A stretch of 64,000 bases of DNA, from the NCBI RefSeq assembly GCF_015240255.1, contig NZ_CP061205.1, forward strand, positions 1,447,501-1,511,500, in the 5' to 3' direction. Positions within the stretch are counted from its first letter, which is position 1. Each line of letters starts with the position of its first letter. Both the position numbers and the translations under genes were made by a program. Origin of the DNA: Kordiimonas pumila. Lineage in GTDB: Bacteria; Pseudomonadota; Alphaproteobacteria; Sphingomonadales; Kordiimonadaceae. Of the stretch, positions 1,241 through 45,111 are shown in pieces. Under the pieces are notes generated by a model. It searched no databases and was not told the DNA's origin. It saw nothing but the letters and a program-made list of their open reading frames with translations.

Positions 1241-2344
1241 TTAGTTAGCAAACCGGAAGTGCAGAACGTCGCCGTCTACTACCAGATATTCTTTGCCTTC
1301 CAGACGCATCTTGCCTGCATCTTTCGCCCCTTGCTCACCGCCTAAGGTTACATACTCATTGTAGGCAATGGTTTCAGCGCGGATAAAGCCTTTTTCAAAG
1401 TCAGTATGGATCACCCCTGCGGCTTGCGGTGCCTTGGTGCCTTTGGTGATTGTCCATGCACGGGCTTCTTTGGGGCCAACAGTGAAATAGGTGATTAGTT
1501 CCAAAAGGTCGTAGCCTGCGCGAATAACGCGGGCGAGGCCAGTTTGGCCAAGGCCAAGAGTTTCTAAAAACTCGGCTTTCTCTGCATCATTATCAAGCTG
1601 TGCAATTTCTGATTCGACCGCCGCAGAAATAATAACACATCCAGCACCTTGTTTGGCCGCCATCTCAGCAACAGCTGTAGAAAACGCGTTGCCTTCAGCG
1701 GCGCTATCTTCATCCACGTTGCAGATATAAAGGATAGGCTTGCCGGTTAACAGTTGCATGCCTTGCAGAACCTTTGCTTCTTCTTCGTCTTTAACATCCA
1801 CTATCCGCGCAGGTTTGCCGTCTTTCAATAGTGGTATGATCTTGTCGATCAGGGCCATAATAGCAATGGCTTCCTTGTCGCCGCCGCGCACCCGGCGCCC
1901 AAGACCGTGGATACGGCCCTCTAGGCTTTCAAGGTCTGCAAGCATCAGCTCTACTTCAATGGTTTCTGCGTCAGATACTGGGTCAACGCGGCCATCAACA
2001 TGGGTGATGTCATCGTCTTCAAAACAGCGTAGCACATGGCAAATGGCGTCAGTTTCGCGGATATTGGCAAGGAATTGGTTACCGAGGCCTTCGCCCTTAG
2101 AGGCACCGCGAACAAGGCCCGCAATATCAACAAAGGAAAGCTGTGTGGGGATAATTTCCTTTGAGCCAGCAATTTTAGCAAGTTTGAACAGGCGTTCATC
2201 AGGCACTGGTACTTGGCCAACGTTTGGCTCAATCGTGCAAAAGGGGTAGTTGGCCGCCGCCGCGCTTGCTGTGTTCGTAAGCGCGTTAAACAGGGTTGAT
2301 TTACCCACATTTGGCAATCCGACAATGCCGCATTTAAAACCCAT
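1241..2344 (-). CDS. ychF: Redox-regulated ATPase/GTPase YchF (Obg family)
   Basis: Universally conserved P-loop protein of the Obg family that binds ATP, associates with ribosomes and affects stress responses. At 367 residues it has the usual family length. The G1 loop [11 protein letters not shown] is at residues 8-18, [17 protein letters not shown] forms G3 and the following loop, and the G4 position reads NVDE instead of NKxD, as expected for YchF and its ATP preference. A coiled-coil insertion and a C-terminal TGS domain (about residues 280-365) follow. Its ATG overlaps the pth stop by one base (TAATG), so the two genes are translationally coupled as pth-ychF. Confidence 0.97.
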
Positions 2345-4821: not shown

Positions 4822-5760
4822 TTAATCAAACAGGCTTGAAACACTTGTTTCATGAGCAATGCGGTTCATTGCCTCTGCCAGAAGCGGTGCCACAGTAACA
4901 ACTCTCACCTTTTTGCTGGTGTTCACACCGGCTGTTGGTCTGATGCTGTCTGTGATAATCACTTCATCAAGGCCGCTCGCCGCAATGCGGTCAATAGCAG
5001 GGCCAGAGAGAACACCGTGCGCAACATACGCTGAAACAGATTTTGCACCAGCGCTTAGCAAAGCTTGGGCTGCATTACAAAGGGTACCGGCGCTGTCGAC
5101 AATATCATCAACCAGCACGCAGTTTGTGCCTTCTACTTCACCCACAATGTGCATCACCTCAGAAACACCGGCGCGTTCGCGGCGTTTATCAATGATCGCA
5201 ATCGGCGAATCCATTCGTTTAGCATAGGCGCGTGCCCGAACCACACCGCCAACATCGGGCGATACGATTGTTGTAGGGCGGCCTGCATATTTTTCTTTCA
5301 TATCACGCACCAGCACAGGCATGGCATAGAGATTATCTGTCGGGATATCAAAGAAGCCCTGAATTTGGCCTGCGTGTAGGTCAATTGTCAGAACCCTGTC
5401 AGCGCCTGCTGTTGTGATCAGGTTGGCAACCAGCTTTGCTGAAATTGGTGTGCGGGGGCCGGGTTTACGGTCCTGCCTAGCATAACCGAAATACGGAATA
5501 ACTGCTGTAATACGCCGTGCTGAAGCCCGTCTTAGGGCATCAATACAAACAAGCAGCTCCATCATGTGGTCGTTTGCTGGGTAACTTGTCGGCTGCACAA
5601 GGAAAACATCCTCACCGCGAACGTTTTCCAGAATTTCAATAAATACTTCCTGATCTGAAAAGCGCTTTATAGACGCTTTCGCGAGCGGGATATTAAGATA
5701 AGCGGCGATTGCTTCCGCTAGTTCCGGGTTCGAGTTCCCGGTTAAAATCTTCATGCCCAT
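4822..5760 (-). CDS. prs: Ribose-phosphate pyrophosphokinase
   Basis: Makes PRPP from ribose-5-phosphate and ATP for nucleotide, His and Trp synthesis. Class I PRPP synthetase features are present: the ATP-binding loop [30 protein letters not shown], and the PRPP-binding loop [18 protein letters not shown] chose the ATG at 5760 because a GGAGG sits seven bases upstream; it gives 312 residues starting MGMKILTG, the usual family length. A longer in-frame start would add unconserved residues. It is monocistronic, with a bidirectional terminator just past its 3' end. Confidence 0.97.
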
Positions 5761-5901
5761 CAAATGGCCTCCACGGTGATGAAGATTGACCAATATTGCC
5801 GGACCTTTAACAGTGCAAAGCCACTGTGTAAAGCCGCACGGGCAAAATGTTTCAAATAAGTTGCTGGATTATGTAAAATACAGGACAAGGGCACCGGTAT
5901 T

Positions 5902-6693
5902 TTAAGCCGGTATCATAATGGCGGAAAGTTGCCGGCCATAGTCTGGTTCGCCCCTATGGGTGGTGCGTCTGTAAGAAAAGTGATCCAGGCTTTTATAGGT
6001 GTCAGTGCCGGCACTCCAGACAGATGTAAGACCACTTTTCCCAAGTTGCGTGCAAACAAAGCCGGGCAGGTCAAACTGGTAATGGTCTGGGTTTGTGCCA
6101 GCGATGAAAAAAGAATCGTTATCAGGGTCTGTATCTGTGAAAACGGTTTTGAAATCACTGCCTACTTCATAGCTTTGCTGGTGGATAGTAGGGCCAACAG
6201 CTGCATGGATTCGGTCCCTGCTTGCGCCCAAGGCCTCCATCGCAGCAATGGTGTTTTCCAGAATACCCGCAAGAGCGCCTTTCCAGCCAGCATGAGCTGC
6301 ACCAATAACGCCTGCATCAGAATCAATGAATAATACCGGGGTGCAGTCTGCGGTTAAAATGCCAAGAACAACCCCGGTTTGTTTGGTAACAAGGGCATCA
6401 GCTCTGGGCCTGTTATCCGGGTCTACTTCCCAGTCATCTGTAAGGGTTAGAACATCTGCACTGTGGATTTGGTACAGGGTTGCAAGTGGCGGCGGGCGTT
6501 TGCCGTTTGTTAGATATTGCAAGGCGATTCGCCTGTTGGCAGCAATGTTTTCCGGTAGGTCATCAGACCCCGTGCCGCAGTTAAGGCTTGCGTATATGCC
6601 GCTTGATATACCGCCTTTGCTTGGAAAAAAAGCATGGGGCAGTTGAATGTAGGGCGACTTGATCAGCCCTTTCATCATGGGTGCATTTTTCAT
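5902..6693 (-). CDS. pgeF: Multicopper-oxidase-fold purine nucleoside phosphorylase/polyphenol oxidase (YfiH family)
   Basis: YfiH/RlmD-type 'laccase domain' protein. Characterised members act as zinc-dependent purine nucleoside phosphorylase/adenosine deaminase; older names are polyphenol oxidase and PgeF (peptidoglycan editing factor). At 263 residues it carries YQIHSADVLTL (first His), LTADCTPVLFID (conserved Cys) and IGAAHAGWKGALAGI (second and third His), the zinc-binding set. It follows midA with only two bases between stop and start, giving a lgt-midA-pgeF operon, a conserved alphaproteobacterial arrangement. An internal ATG pair five to six codons in is an alternative start. Confidence 0.93.
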   Translation of the reverse strand: MKNAPMMKGLIKSPYIQLPHAFFPSKGGISSGIYASLNCGTGSDDLPENIAANRRIALQYLTNGKRPPPLATLYQIHSADVLTLTDDWEVDPDNRPRADALVTKQTGVVLGILTADCTPVLFIDSDAGVIGAAHAGWKGALAGILENTIAAMEALGASRDRIHAAVGPTIHQQSYEVGSDFKTVFTDTDPDNDSFFIAGTNPDHYQFDLPGFVCTQLGKSGLTSVWSAGTDTYKSLDHFSYRRTTHRGEPDYGRQLSAIMIPA

Positions 6694-6695
6694 TT

Positions 6696-7772
6696 TTAAA
6701 ATCCCGCCGGTGGTGCAAGCTTTTTATCCTGCAAGGCTAACACTTTAAAAAGTGTACCCATTTCTTCACCGGCTGTCAGGCGTTTTAATTCAGACAAAAT
6801 GCGTGATTGCCCTTCTTCTGACCCAATATGGTCTGAAAGCTGTTGGGCGCGAGCGCCGATTCCCAGCGCCATTAGGAACATGCCTTGGGCGGCAGGACCG
6901 TATGATACAGCGCCCTTTGATGTGGCTGCCTTTGCAAGTTGATCGAACGCAACATGGGCGGTAATATCGGCGGTGCCTGGCTCTAAAAGCGGGCTGATAA
7001 ATGTATGTTCTTTAAGGGCTTGGAATGTATCGCCGTGGGCACTTTTCCTATAGCCATAATCAATAATAAGCGCTGCACCGCCGTTTTTATCCAGCCGTTC
7101 AGCAATGTCGCCAGCGATAGAAAGCGCGCTGGGGCAGACCTCTAGAATACTCCCTTCAGCACCTGATTGCCTTAATGTTTCCTCAGTCAGCGCCAGCTTG
7201 GGTGTGGGCGGCGTAAGCACAAGGGTGAAGTCCTCTCCCTCTGCATTTATGCGGCGCTCCAGCCAGTTGCCTTGGAACTTTTCAAATTGATGAATGGGCA
7301 GGGCGTCGAAGAATTCGTTCGCCACAATCAGGCTTGGGCCGTCTGGCACCTGTGCCAGCGTATCGTGCCAGTGTGCAAAGGGCACCAGCTCTGCTTGCAG
7401 CTTTCTAAGCTGCTCGCTTGCTTCAACAAAATGAACGGTAAGGGCAGACTGAAAGCCTTCAACCGCAGCTGTGGCGCGTAGCATGTCAGACATTAATGTG
7501 CCGCGCCCCGGCCCTAGTTCTATAAGCTGTACACCGTCAGGTTTACCCATTTTATACCAGCGGTCAGCAAGCCAAAGGCCGAGCATTTCGCCGTACATCT
7601 GGCTAACTTCAGGCGCGGTTATGAAATCACCGTCTGCCCCAAAAACTGTTTCTTTCTGGTAATACCCATGCTCTGGGTGCATCAGGCACTCGGCCATATA
7701 GTCTGCAATAGTCATGGGGCCTGATGTGGCAATGCGCTCGATCATTAGCTTTTTAAGGGCGTTTTCTGTCAT
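6696..7772 (-). CDS. SAM-dependent protein arginine methyltransferase, NDUFAF7/MidA-like
   Basis: Class I SAM-dependent methyltransferase of the COG1565 family, whose mitochondrial member NDUFAF7/MidA methylates an arginine in complex I. The SAM-binding motif I is LIELGPGRGTLMSDML; IVANEFFDALPIHQFEK follows, and YFQ-type motifs plus the late GxDI-like segment (EPGTADITAHV) complete the fold. The ATG at 7772 overlaps the lgt TGA (ATGA), which fixes the start and gives 358 residues. An in-frame start at 7823 would extend into lgt. It sits between lgt and pgeF. A bacterial complex I role is plausible but unproven. Confidence 0.9.
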   Translation of the reverse strand: MTENALKKLMIERIATSGPMTIADYMAECLMHPEHGYYQKETVFGADGDFITAPEVSQMYGEMLGLWLADRWYKMGKPDGVQLIELGPGRGTLMSDMLRATAAVEGFQSALTVHFVEASEQLRKLQAELVPFAHWHDTLAQVPDGPSLIVANEFFDALPIHQFEKFQGNWLERRINAEGEDFTLVLTPPTPKLALTEETLRQSGAEGSILEVCPSALSIAGDIAERLDKNGGAALIIDYGYRKSAHGDTFQALKEHTFISPLLEPGTADITAHVAFDQLAKAATSKGAVSYGPAAQGMFLMALGIGARAQQLSDHIGSEEGQSRILSELKRLTAGEEMGTLFKVLALQDKKLAPPAGF

Positions 7773-9943: not shown

Positions 9944-10774
9944 ATGCACCATGTATTTTCTGCACAGCATCCACTTGTTCTTGTTGGTTTTGGTAATATG
10001 GGACGGGCACTTGCCAGTGGCTGGTTAAAGGCAGGTCTGCCCGCAGAAGCCTTGTATGTGGCAGACCCATTTGCAACAGCTGATTCTTTTCCATCTGTTC
10101 CGGCGGCTAATTTTGTTAAAGGGGCAGATGCCCTGCCAAAAGGCATTATGGCACGCGGGGTTATTCTTGCGGTTAAGCCACAGATCATGAACACTATATT
10201 GCTTGCTGTTGCAACGATTACGGCACCCACAACGCTGATCATTTCCATTGCTGCGGGTGTAACGCTTAACCAGATGCAAAAGGGTATTGGCAAGCCAGCG
10301 GTTTACGTGCGGTCTATGCCCAATACACCAGCGGCTGTTGGTGCTGGCATTACGGGTGTAACGGCTGATGATATTTCACCTGAAAACCAACAGCTTGCGC
10401 TTGATATTCTCTCTGCAACAGGGTCGGCTGTATGGATACCATCTGAAACATTGATGAACGCGGTAACGGCGGTATCGGGCAGTGGCCCTGCATATGTCTT
10501 TCATTTGGTTGAGGCCATGGCCGCTGCTGGCGTAAAAGAAGGCCTAGATGCGAAGACGGCTATGGCACTTGCGCGGCAGACTGTTATTGGCGCAGGGCGT
10601 TTGATGGAAGATGATCAGGCAACAGAAGCGGCTGAACTGCGTAAGCGTGTTACAAGCCCAGGCGGCACGACGGCTGCGGCGCTTGATGTTTTGATGGATG
10701 ATAGCGCAATGACCCGTTTGCTGGAGCGTGCGATTGCAGCTGCATCAAAGCGCGGCGCCGAACTTGCTGGCTAG
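9944..10774 (+). CDS. proC: Pyrroline-5-carboxylate reductase
   Basis: NADPH-dependent final step of proline synthesis, reducing pyrroline-5-carboxylate. At 276 residues it has the Rossmann loop VGFGNMGRALASGWL near the N-terminus, ILAVKPQ, RSMPNTPAAVGAGITG, and the C-terminal P5CR signature (AELRKRVTSPGGTTAAALDVL) in the dimerisation domain. A GC-rich terminator follows the stop. Confidence 0.97.
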   Translation: MHHVFSAQHPLVLVGFGNMGRALASGWLKAGLPAEALYVADPFATADSFPSVPAANFVKGADALPKGIMARGVILAVKPQIMNTILLAVATITAPTTLIISIAAGVTLNQMQKGIGKPAVYVRSMPNTPAAVGAGITGVTADDISPENQQLALDILSATGSAVWIPSETLMNAVTAVSGSGPAYVFHLVEAMAAAGVKEGLDAKTAMALARQTVIGAGRLMEDDQATEAAELRKRVTSPGGTTAAALDVLMDDSAMTRLLERAIAAASKRGAELAG

Positions 10775-10810
10775 AAATATACCAGTATAGATTCTTCATC
10801 GATTACAATT

Positions 10811-10840
10811 TGGGCTGCCCCTTTTGGGGTGGCCCTTTTT
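10811..10840 (+). terminator. Terminator after proC
   Basis: GGGCTGCCCC / GGGGTGGCCC hairpin followed by TTTTT, about 40 bp after the proC stop. Confidence 0.8.
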
Positions 10841-10851
10841 ATAAAGCGCGC

Positions 10852-10880
10852 AAAAAAAAACGGCCTGCAAAAGCAAGCCG
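10852..10880 (-). terminator. Strong minus-strand terminator of an unknown transcript
   Basis: Read on the minus strand: CGGCTTGC-TTTT-GCAGGCCG followed by nine T. The nearest annotated minus-strand gene (LysR) ends more than 450 bp upstream, and a G/C-rich hairpin lies in between, so this may end a separate short RNA rather than the LysR mRNA. Confidence 0.7.
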
Positions 10881-10921
10881 TATAGGTATCATTCAGGGAG
10901 GAAGCTCACTAGGAGCTAAAT

Positions 10922-10979
10922 AAAAGGGCCGGCCCCGGGGGAAGTGGGGGAGGGGGGAGGGTCCCGGAGCCGGCCTTTA
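10922..10979 (-). other. GC-rich hairpin with C-rich (anti-Shine-Dalgarno-like) loop; possible small RNA
   Basis: A stem of about 16 bp (10924-10939 with 10963-10978, few mismatches) encloses a loop that on the plus strand is four G tracts, able to form a G-quadruplex, and on the minus strand is a run of CCCTCC/CCTCCCCC. It lies in the 560-bp gene-free gap between proC and the LysR gene. A strong minus-strand terminator sits 40-70 bp downstream, and a smaller AGCTC hairpin lies between them. Alphaproteobacterial small RNAs with CCUCC loops are known, so a minus-strand sRNA is a reasonable reading. I cannot see a convincing promoter. The rest of 10980-11336 holds nothing I recognise. Confidence 0.4.
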
Positions 10980-11336
10980 TGACGGAAAACCGTCAAATCA
11001 CTGTACATTTACTCAAAACTAAAGCCTTTAACAAATTCGCAGGGAGATACGTTTCCGTTTGGCTTGATGGGTATATAGGATTGAATTCTTGCCTGGAAAA
11101 CCCTTTTTATAGTCGTATCAGATATGCGTTTTTTGCATGTCTGTGCTATGTGAACTATTTGTGAAACGCATTGCTTGGTTAATGGTATCGCTATGAAAAA
11201 AATATCTTTATTTTGCAATAGTTTAGCTATTTGTCCGGGAAGATAAGCAATAAAGAGCCTTTGTAGGCATTCACGGTAAAAGCTGCTAAAATAGTGAAAA
11301 CGTTAATAAAAATTAATTTTTAGGTGCTGTGAAATA

Positions 11337-12230
11337 CTATAAAATATTACTTTCAGATCGAATCTGGCGGACCATAAAATCTCTGAATAAAGCAACCCTT
11401 AAGGAACCTCTCAGTTCGGGAGGATAGCAATAGTAACTATTGAACGGTTGTTCCTCAACATCAGGTAAAACACGGACAAGCTTTTTTCTGTTGTGCACAA
11501 GGTAATCTGGTAATACTGCAATACCAAGCCCGGCTTCAACGGCATGAAGCATGCCGTAGAGGTTATTAATTTCAAGTCGGGGTCTGCGCCGTTTTTTACC
11601 TGTGCTGAGTTCCACAAGCCAGTTCAAGTTTTGCAGGGTGCTAACCTTGCTGTTCCCGAAGGCAATCAAGTCGTGCTGATCGAGGTCTTCAATACGGATG
11701 GGCATACCCTTGCGGTCAAGGTATTCAGGGCTTGCATAGATATGCGTATGAAAGGTTGCCAGTGGTCGCTGTATCAGGTCTGCTTGCTCTGGTTCGTGCA
11801 GGCGGATCGCAACATCAGCTTCACCTGCTGCCAGATCAAGATCTTCATCATCCAGAATCAGCTTGATATCAATATCAGGGTATTCTGACATGAAGTGCTC
11901 AAGATGAGGCGTGAGCCATACAGCACCAAAGGTTACCATGGTTGTAACCCGTAACAGCCCGGAAGGGCGCTCCTTAGATTCCATCAGGCTGCGTTCGGTT
12001 TCTTCGATACGCAGCACAACTTCGCGGGCGGTATTATAAAGCTCCTGTCCTTCCTGAGTGAGAACAAGGCCGCGTGCATGACGGGTGAAAAGGGAAACCT
12101 TCATGCTTTCTTCAAGCGCCCTGATCTGCCGGCTAACGGCGGATTGGCTAGAGTTTAGGCGTGCACCGGCATTGGTGAAGCTGCCTGATTCTGCTACTGT
12201 GTGAAAAATCCGAAGTCTGTCCCAGTCCAT
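11337..12230 (-). CDS. LysR family transcriptional regulator
   Basis: LysR-type regulator of 297 residues. The N-terminal winged helix-turn-helix (MDWDRLRIFHTVAESGSF..., about residues 1-65) contains the recognition segment SSQSAVSRQIRALEESM. The effector-binding domain follows from about residue 90. It starts at an ATG whose Asp-Trp-Asp opening is common in GcvA/AmpR-like LTTRs of alphaproteobacteria. No target gene is adjacent: the divergent neighbour is a small winged-helix protein gene 160 bp away, which is the natural candidate target by position. The inducer is unknown. Confidence 0.93.
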   Translation of the reverse strand: MDWDRLRIFHTVAESGSFTNAGARLNSSQSAVSRQIRALEESMKVSLFTRHARGLVLTQEGQELYNTAREVVLRIEETERSLMESKERPSGLLRVTTMVTFGAVWLTPHLEHFMSEYPDIDIKLILDDEDLDLAAGEADVAIRLHEPEQADLIQRPLATFHTHIYASPEYLDRKGMPIRIEDLDQHDLIAFGNSKVSTLQNLNWLVELSTGKKRRRPRLEINNLYGMLHAVEAGLGIAVLPDYLVHNRKKLVRVLPDVEEQPFNSYYCYPPELRGSLRVALFRDFMVRQIRSESNIL

Positions 12231-12746: not shown

Positions 12747-13823
<1,077 letters not shown>

Positions 13824-14174: not shown

Positions 14175-14353
14175 AAAGGCTCACGTGTCGTTGAATTAGC
14201 TTTTTTAAATATAATGTCAGACATAAATGACCCCAATCGCAATGTCTGTAAATATTATAAATTATTAGAGAATATTATGAAACAGTTTCAGTTAATATTT
14301 CCTTAGCAGATTTGTAAAATTTTTGAAAAAATTGATGGGTTAGGCGCAAAAAA

Positions 14354-14380
14354 TAAGGGCCTACAAAATGCAGGCCCTTA
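14354..14380 (-). terminator. Terminator after the peroxiredoxin gene
   Basis: TAAGGGCCT / AGGCCCTTA hairpin followed on the minus strand by ATTTTTTG, 20 bp past the stop. Confidence 0.8.
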
Positions 14381-14402
14381 AAATAAACATTATTCAGAAG
14401 GT

Positions 14403-15008
14403 TTAGAGCTTGCCAGCATGCTTGCTGAGGTAAGCCGCAACACCGTCTGCATCAGCTTTCATGCCTTCATCGCCCTTGTTCCAGCCAGCAGGGCAAACTT
14501 CGCCGTGCTCTTCATGGAACTGAAGTGCTTCAACAAGGCGAACAAACTCGTCAACATTCCGGCCAAGCGGCAGGAAGTTTACATACTGGTGCCAAACGTT
14601 ACCGTCTTTACCAATAAGGAATGTGCCGCGCAGAGCAACGCCGTCTGCTTCGATCAGAACGTCATAGTCGCGTGAAATCTGTTTTGTGATATCTGCAACC
14701 ATTGGGAAGTCAACAGGGCCAAGGCCGCCTTCTGCTGTTGGCGTGTTGCGCCATGCAGCGTGCGAGAACTGGCTATCAACAGAAACGGCAACAACTTTCA
14801 CGCCAAGTTCTTTGAACTTTTTCATGCGGTTGTGGAATGCCAGAATTTCAGAAGGGCACACAAATGTAAAATCGAGCGGATAGAAAAATACCAAGCCGTA
14901 CCCATCGCCGATATATTCTTTCAGGTTGAAGGATTCGTTGATGCTGCCATCTTCCATTACCGCTGCTGCGGTAAAATCTGGTGCTGGTTTGCCTGCTAGT
15001 ACAGCCAT
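14403..15008 (-). CDS. Peroxiredoxin (typical 2-Cys, AhpC/Prx1 type)
   Basis: Thiol peroxidase of 201 residues that reduces H2O2 and organic peroxides. The peroxidatic Cys is in PLDFTFVCPSEILAFH (about residue 50) and the resolving Cys in HGEVCPAGWNKGDEGM (about residue 169). The active-site Pro/Thr and the later Arg are in place. No AhpF gene is adjacent, and trxB lies 700 bp away on the same strand, so thioredoxin is the likely reductant. The ATG has AGGAGGCCC just upstream. Two perfect palindromes lie in the upstream region and may be regulatory sites. Confidence 0.95.
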   Translation of the reverse strand: MAVLAGKPAPDFTAAAVMEDGSINESFNLKEYIGDGYGLVFFYPLDFTFVCPSEILAFHNRMKKFKELGVKVVAVSVDSQFSHAAWRNTPTAEGGLGPVDFPMVADITKQISRDYDVLIEADGVALRGTFLIGKDGNVWHQYVNFLPLGRNVDEFVRLVEALQFHEEHGEVCPAGWNKGDEGMKADADGVAAYLSKHAGKL

Positions 15009-44990: not shown

Positions 44991-45111
44991 CAAGATGTGC
45001 GTGGGGTAGTACCCACGCATCTTGTGCTCCCAAATGCTGCGCATTTGCTCGGCAAGGGGAACCCGTTCCCGGTTCCCCGTTGCATCCCCTCCGGCTTTGA
45101 TATGCTGGAGG
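44991..45111. repeat. Tandem array of four hairpins
   Basis: Four adjacent inverted repeats: CAAGAT(GT)GCGTGGG / CCCACGCATCTTG (44991-45024, two-base bulge); CAAATGC-TGC-GCATTTG (45031-45047, perfect); GGGGAACC-CGTTCCC-GGTTCCCC (45056-45078, perfect); CCTCC / GGAGG (45088-45111). They end six bases before the methyltransferase stop, between the island backbone and the four-gene defence-like operon. No run of T follows on either strand, so it does not look like an ordinary terminator. The rest of 44824-45116 is AT-rich without genes. Confidence 0.7.

Follow-up and report, generated by a model that had tools for sequence, protein, structure and literature searches.

In Agrobacterium the genes trxB, vtlR, abcR1 and abcR2 follow one another in this order, and the pair trxB-vtlR has been described as well conserved in the class, as has VtlR itself (PMC7486931); LsrB has been described as unique to Rhizobiales (PMC11975290). 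Of the anti-Shine-Dalgarno (anti-SD) sequences of AbcR RNAs, one sits in the loop of a hairpin and the other between stem-loops, and the promoter PabcR1 has GCAT-N3-TG-N3-T at -61 to -49 and CTATAT as -10 box (PMC8844928). Binding of LsrB to PabcR1 and PnfeR1 has been demonstrated (PMC8844928, PMC10746234), and PMC7486931 and PMC8844928 disagree on the control of AbcR by LsrB in S. meliloti. NfeR1 of Sinorhizobium contains several anti-SD motifs and is activated by LsrB via TGCA-N6-GCAT (PMC8844928, PMC10746234), which in its promoter lies at -72 to -57 (PMC10746234). The Rfam family ar15 (RF02345) has been placed in Rhizobiaceae and Brucellaceae, where it occurs in multiple copies (PMC3712013), and belongs to one Rfam clan (CL00108) with suhB (RF00519), the model of the aR8 RNAs (MmgR/SisA-D); the aR8 RNAs of Caulobacter have UUUCCUCCCU in common (PMC12559287).

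The window analysed here is a stretch of 64,000 nucleotides from the 4.04 Mb genome of Kordiimonas pumila (genus Kordiimonas), and its minus strand has the order trxB-LysR-sRNA, which is the trxB-vtlR-abcR order of Agrobacterium. The thioredoxin reductase gene trxB (12747..13793; TIGR01292 above cut-off) is located upstream of the gene for a LysR-type regulator (11337..12230), with 520 nt between the two matches, and is followed, beyond the LysR gene, by a locus at 10852..11065 that likely encodes a trans-acting anti-SD sRNA of the AbcR type, activated by the LsrB-like protein and missed by the Rfam ar15 model. The regulator, a putative activator, was recognized as LsrB/VtlR-like by Pfam (HTH_1 and LysR_substrate) and by its top PDB match 9HH1 (E 5e-87; next match 8e-32), the accession of the cryo-EM structure from the Agrobacterium LsrB study (PMC11975290). 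The redox cysteines of LsrB are C144 and C273, whereas the Kordiimonas protein has a single cysteine (residue 268, opposite position 273 of the 9HH1 chain in the alignment) and thus a counterpart for one of them but none for C144. An hfq gene was found in the source genome; Hfq binding, LsrB-dependent expression and the repression of mRNAs for ABC transporters are traits expected of an AbcR RNA. On the other side of the locus lies the convergent neighbour proC (9944..10774, plus strand); since proC stops at 10774, followed by its own terminator-like site (10812-10835), and the LysR gene stops at 11337, no known gene ends at the feature, as the original prediction had stated for 10852-10979.

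The sRNA gene (minus strand, approximately 214 nt) was delimited by conservation, alignment and covariation, with the putative 5' end set 12 nt past the start of the -10 box. From 5' to 3' the RNA is predicted to contain hairpin 1 (10980..10995; UGACGG-UUUU-CCGUCA, from the fold), a GC-rich hairpin 2 (10927..10975) with a 13-bp stem (10975-10963/10939-10927) and a C-rich loop of 23 nt (10940-10962) that includes CCCUCCCCCCUCCCCC (anti-SD 1), a small hairpin 3 (10904..10916; GCUCCUAGUGAGC, from the fold), the single-stranded UUCCUCCCU (10895..10903; anti-SD 2, from the alignment to suhB) and an intrinsic terminator formed by a hairpin and nine T (10852..10881), so that the first anti-SD would be part of a hairpin loop and the second would separate two stem-loops. 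The GC-rich hairpin with its C-rich minus-strand loop, the small hairpin and the terminator with nine T had been described before and are present in the sequence as described; the feature runs beyond the span 10852-10979 considered then and adds the hairpin at 10980-10995, the -10 box at 11072-11077 and the palindromic site at 11124-11138. The fold of minus-strand positions 10845-11010 had an energy of -62.4 kcal/mol compared with a mean of -42.7 for shuffled sequences (z -5.44; none of 200 shuffles equal). The plus strand (10845-10985) read as RNA was ordinary against shuffles (z -0.90), and a structured RNA from this strand was ruled out on that value. Both the DNA search and the structure model R2 (see below) found one copy of the sRNA in the source genome.

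By DNA search, the element was present in 17 of 19 Kordiimonas genomes, the source genome included; the two genomes without a match have a completeness of 93% and 83%, and a second match of 27 nt in L019 was discarded from the genus set. Sixteen of the 17 copies were aligned, L018 being omitted because five consecutive T were absent from its scanned stretch; its locus (L185) was later matched by model R2 with 63 bits. RNAalifold gave 27 pairs on this alignment, 15 of them changed on both sides, with 96.3% of helix cells paired (15 distinct rows). The covariation score was 0.471 compared with 0.230 for shuffled alignments (none of 500 reached it) and no more than 0.180 for slid structures, where counting on a structure derived from the same alignment favours the structure somewhat. 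The 13-bp stem of hairpin 2 was paired in 99.5% of cells with 7/13 pairs changed on both sides, the terminator had 7/8 such pairs, and hairpin 1 was paired in 94.4% of cells with 1/6 such pairs. Among the genus copies the 5' part and the small hairpin are variable, the latter being absent from the consensus structure; the position of anti-SD 2 is C-rich in the genus alignment and degenerate in L015. Because it occurs in 17/19 genomes, has 96.3% of its helix cells paired and shows changes on both sides in 15/27 pairs, the element is not due to chance, and the helices of the Kordiimonas RNA are maintained by compensatory changes. The small RNA with an anti-SD-type loop that had been proposed for this site gains support from this conservation of sequence and structure in relatives, from the covariation, from the LsrB-type promoter site and from the finding of an RNA in the corresponding position in another family.

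At curated thresholds, Rfam found nothing but tRNAs in the window, in 20 class loci and in 15 of the 17 genus loci. The ar15 model (cut-off 40 bits) was unlisted for 10780-11340 even at E 10. Over 142 class genomes, the source genome included, ar15 had 0 matches, and the control was silent too, so that this search is no evidence of the absence of ar15. Downstream of related LysR genes (51% identity) ar15 scored 44.3 bits in Pleomorphomonas (L134, at a distance of about 335 nt) and 29.7 bits in Roseibium (L130), two loci at which the class RNA model R1 (see below) had no match. The window RNA resembles AbcR1/AbcR2 in its position after trxB and lsrB/vtlR, the LsrB-type site, the CTATAT -10 box, two anti-SDs and the terminator, but differs in the missing ar15 match, in the long GC-rich hairpin with its 23-nt C-rich loop and in being a single copy. 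Since neither the ar15 model nor the copy number agrees, it was not filed as ar15, and its link to AbcR rests on place and promoter. NfeR1 was compared with it by its published features and through the general Rfam scans. For the class RNAs scanned, the closest Rfam models were SorX (RF02784, Rhodobacter; up to 41.2 bits compared with 46.6) and suhB, both below their cut-offs; SorX was unlisted for the window RNA. In the open papers searched, neither the Kordiimonas RNA nor the module in bacteria other than Rhizobiales turned up; a query with stretches of the class RNA brought three papers on unrelated human topics, and the main text of an Azospirillum sRNA paper contains neither trxB nor thioredoxin reductase (PMC7685610).

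The closest Rfam model below thresholds was suhB/aR8, the top match, which covered 10845-10923. Window RNA and aR8 RNAs have a 3' module in common that consists of a weak hairpin, UUCCUCCCU and the terminator, with UUCCUCCCU corresponding to the last nine of the ten letters of the aR8 motif. The RNA could accordingly be seen as a plain member of aR8/MmgR under its own regulation, independent of the LysR gene; this is unlikely, since the score was 28.5 bits compared with a cut-off of 41, 17 of 19 Kordiimonas genomes have a different place that exceeds the cut-off (in the source genome G000:C1:3679291-3679365, minus strand, 53.8 bits), the neighbours are different and the long hairpin with the C-loop falls outside the stretch matched by suhB.

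Upstream of the predicted start lie a -10 box TATATA (11072..11077, minus strand; CTATATA including the preceding base), present in 17/17 genus copies, and the palindrome ATGCAAAAAACGCAT (11124..11138, minus strand), a putative LsrB/VtlR site that fits both TGCA-N6-GCAT and the T-N11-A box of LysR-type regulators. ATGC-N7-GCAT was found in 17/17 genus copies at a distance of 61 nt (16 copies) or 60 nt (one copy) from TATATA. With transcription assumed to begin 12 nt past the first base of TATATA, the palindrome is placed at about -73 to -59 and TGCA-N6-GCAT from about -72. GCAT-N3-TG is present at 11127-11119 (minus strand) and invariant in the genus copies by inspection; the window site has C where GCAT-N3-TG-N3-T ends in T. 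The promoter carries the site and the spacing published for LsrB/VtlR at rhizobial sRNA promoters, and binding is predicted from this sequence. A simple sigma-70 scan found no promoter on the minus strand. The palindrome followed by TATAT at 43-49 nt occurred three times in the source genome and not at all in the reversed control. Another such pair in the source genome (L298, approximately 1501-1566, minus strand) is located just upstream of a 310-aa ORF, by eye of the ketopantoate-reductase type, and could be a second LysR target or chance.

RNA and LysR gene are on the same strand and the predicted start lies about 270 nt past the LysR stop in the window, which would also suit a promoterless stretch of the LysR mRNA, either its 3' UTR with the terminator or a processing product of that mRNA. 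Sixteen other Kordiimonas genomes carry the RNA, and LysR was upstream on the same strand in 16/16 (trxB was visible within the stretch examined in 11/16), but the distance between LysR and palindrome was 0.4 kb in one genome and 1.8-4.4 kb in the remaining 15. In L173, the one gap that was read, the space between LysR and the sRNA promoter is occupied by an opposite-strand ORF of 590 aa (5092-6864, minus strand; C-terminus cyclophilin-like by eye). Together with the palindrome and -10 box kept at fixed spacing in 17/17 copies, this makes an origin from the LysR transcript quite improbable.

The non-adjacent position of the LysR gene in 15/16 of the other Kordiimonas genomes would also agree with an sRNA locus whose palindrome belongs to another regulator, with LysR not in control, and in S. 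meliloti AbcR was unaffected by the loss of lsrB (PMC7486931). Such a separation of regulator and site is nevertheless very improbable, given that the same palindrome stands beside the same LysR gene in many genomes of the class and matches published sites of LsrB, for which binding to PabcR1 and PnfeR1 is known (PMC8844928, PMC10746234).

A match to the LysR protein (E <= 1e-60) was found in 164 of 289 class genomes, the source genome included. In the first sample, 69 of 83 LysR places outside the source genome were examined, and 37 of these 69 loci had the exact palindrome in the 420 nt that follow the LysR match (control: 5 in 313,648 nt). A set of 80 named loci, 76 with enough sequence, had it in 29 of the 76 (control: 16 in 483,764 nt). 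A trxB match was upstream on the same strand in 57/69 and 65/80 loci. Downstream of LysR, 66 of 149 class loci showed the pattern of an RNA ending in CCUCCCUGUU and a terminator; upstream of these 66 the palindrome was exact in 48, had one mismatch in 15 and two mismatches in 3, where a lone one-mismatch palindrome is weak because the best place within approximately 200 nt was chosen. Palindrome or RNA pattern was present in 91 of the 149 loci and neither in 58; some of the 149 are near-copies (8 pairs with a common downstream 60-mer). The 5' parts of the class RNA differ between lineages.

A model of the class RNA, R1, was built from 53 of the 66 pattern loci, 29 rows coming from the first sample and 24 from named loci, which may include the same species as some of the later genomes. 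RNAalifold found no common pair on the class alignment (A3), and R1 is therefore a sequence-only model. It matched 126 of 289 class genomes, the source genome not being among the matches; of the positive genomes, 61 of 62 in the first sample and 63 of 64 among the later genomes had their places listed. Where the places of both R1 and LysR were listed, R1 was on the LysR strand and within 6 kb downstream in 47/55 genomes of the first sample, and within 8 kb downstream in 48/55 later genomes, 41 of them within 700 nt; it was elsewhere in 15 of the 110 genomes. Seven genomes with both R1 and LysR but with one place unlisted (six later, one from the first sample) are outside these counts, and nine R1-positive genomes (6 + 3) had no LysR match in the tables. 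Three tandem R1 matches followed one LysR gene in L115 (4042-4123, 4359-4412 and 4593-4637), and two or three R1 matches lay close together on one contig in G186, G283, G285 and G295.

Like the window RNA, the class RNA is found downstream of the same LysR gene with the palindrome upstream, and contains CCUCCCU and a terminator; the R1 model, however, matched neither the window nor the Kordiimonas loci L170-L185 at E <= 1. The bridge between the two is L031/G019. R2, a structure model built from the Kordiimonas RNA, was run on the same 289 genomes and matched the source genome and one other, G019 of another family (E 3.7e-5; C83:43733-43860), where the match is 189 nt downstream of the LysR match and the RNA likewise contains a hairpin whose loop carries CCUCCCUCCC. 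Run on 148 class loci, R2 had 16 matches at E <= 1, two of them near-copies (L122 and L131), all at most 0.8 kb downstream of LysR and on its strand, and 132 loci had no match at this threshold. On the window and the Kordiimonas loci there were three further, off-site matches (E 0.023 to 0.69); one of 21.7 bits (E 0.023) at 14349-14450 of the window (minus strand) lies at the 3' end of an ORF that by eye is peroxiredoxin-like, and is perhaps the terminator of that ORF. The weak locus matches on their own could reflect general features of sRNAs; the genome-wide result is stronger.

The plus strand of hairpin 2 has G-runs of 5, 5, 6 and 3 at 10937-10961, and no other G3+N1-7 motif exists on this strand of the window. 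This canonical motif was found in 6 of the 17 genus copies and the long C-runs of the loop in 17/17, which suggests that it is a by-product of the loop; as a function, the G-quadruplex that had been put forward for the opposite strand was not supported, and it was rejected as a conserved feature. That the conserved element is DNA, a plus-strand quadruplex acting on transcription or replication, is extremely improbable despite the canonical motif, as this is limited to 6/17 copies, the helices covary and the plus strand as RNA folds no better than shuffles. One motif of this type, the only one on the minus strand, is located at 45062-45089 of the window.

For candidate targets, the source genome was searched for GGGGGAGG at 4-12 nt before ATG, which gave eight places compared with two in the reversed control. 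Long frames started from four of the eight ATGs; the other four frames had 4-28 codons. The four candidates were a transporter-like protein by eye (L247), a GldF-like permease below cut-off (L248), hppA (L250; membrane pyrophosphatase models with E down to 8e-204, which did not reach their cut-offs, as the query was limited to 444 residues) and a frame of 168 codons that by eye resembles the end of a longer gene (L252). A G-rich stretch ahead of the hppA start, placed by hand, was seen in 19/19 species, with exact GGGGGAGG in seven. The duplex of loop and hppA had -24.9 kcal/mol in the source genome and -16.1 to -26.6 over the 17 species with the RNA, compared with a mean of -10.2 (sd 4.7; best -20.3 kcal/mol) for 46 start regions of the window; as hppA was chosen for its SD, this energy is no independent test. 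In Caulobacter the aR8 RNA SisA represses an hppA fusion (PMC12559287). The aR8 RNA of Kordiimonas could be the true regulator of hppA instead of the window RNA, for which hppA is a candidate target and nothing more.

For the AbcR-type sRNA that we favour, the following course of events is proposed. The LsrB/VtlR-like LysR protein, encoded upstream in the order trxB-lysR-sRNA, would bind ATGC-N7-GCAT at about -73 to -59 and, once bound, would activate a promoter with a TATATA -10 box and no clear -35 box. The resulting RNA of about 214 nt would expose two anti-SD stretches, the loop of the long GC-rich hairpin and the single-stranded stretch before the terminator, and, with Hfq, would base-pair with ribosome-binding sites that are rich in G, blocking translation. 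Transcription, binding and activation by LysR, use of Hfq and repression of targets are each what we infer for this locus, activation and the covering of ribosome-binding sites by analogy with rhizobial work.

The pair of regulator and RNA appears to be more widespread in the class than the literature found describes. We lean slightly towards regarding trxB-LysR-sRNA as an old module of the Alphaproteobacteria in which a regulator of the LsrB/VtlR type is coupled by the palindrome to an anti-SD sRNA, with AbcR, the R1 RNA and the Kordiimonas RNA being diverged forms of one ancestor or successive replacements under the same promoter. AbcR RNAs and VtlR/LsrB have been studied as virulence and symbiosis factors in rhizobia and their relatives; if the module is class-wide, it would be better viewed as an old link between the redox or nutrient state and translation, and harmless species from the sea or from soil could be used as models to study it. 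It would then also add an sRNA family that went unrecognized at the thresholds of Rfam release 15 in the loci scanned (20 class loci, 15 genus loci).
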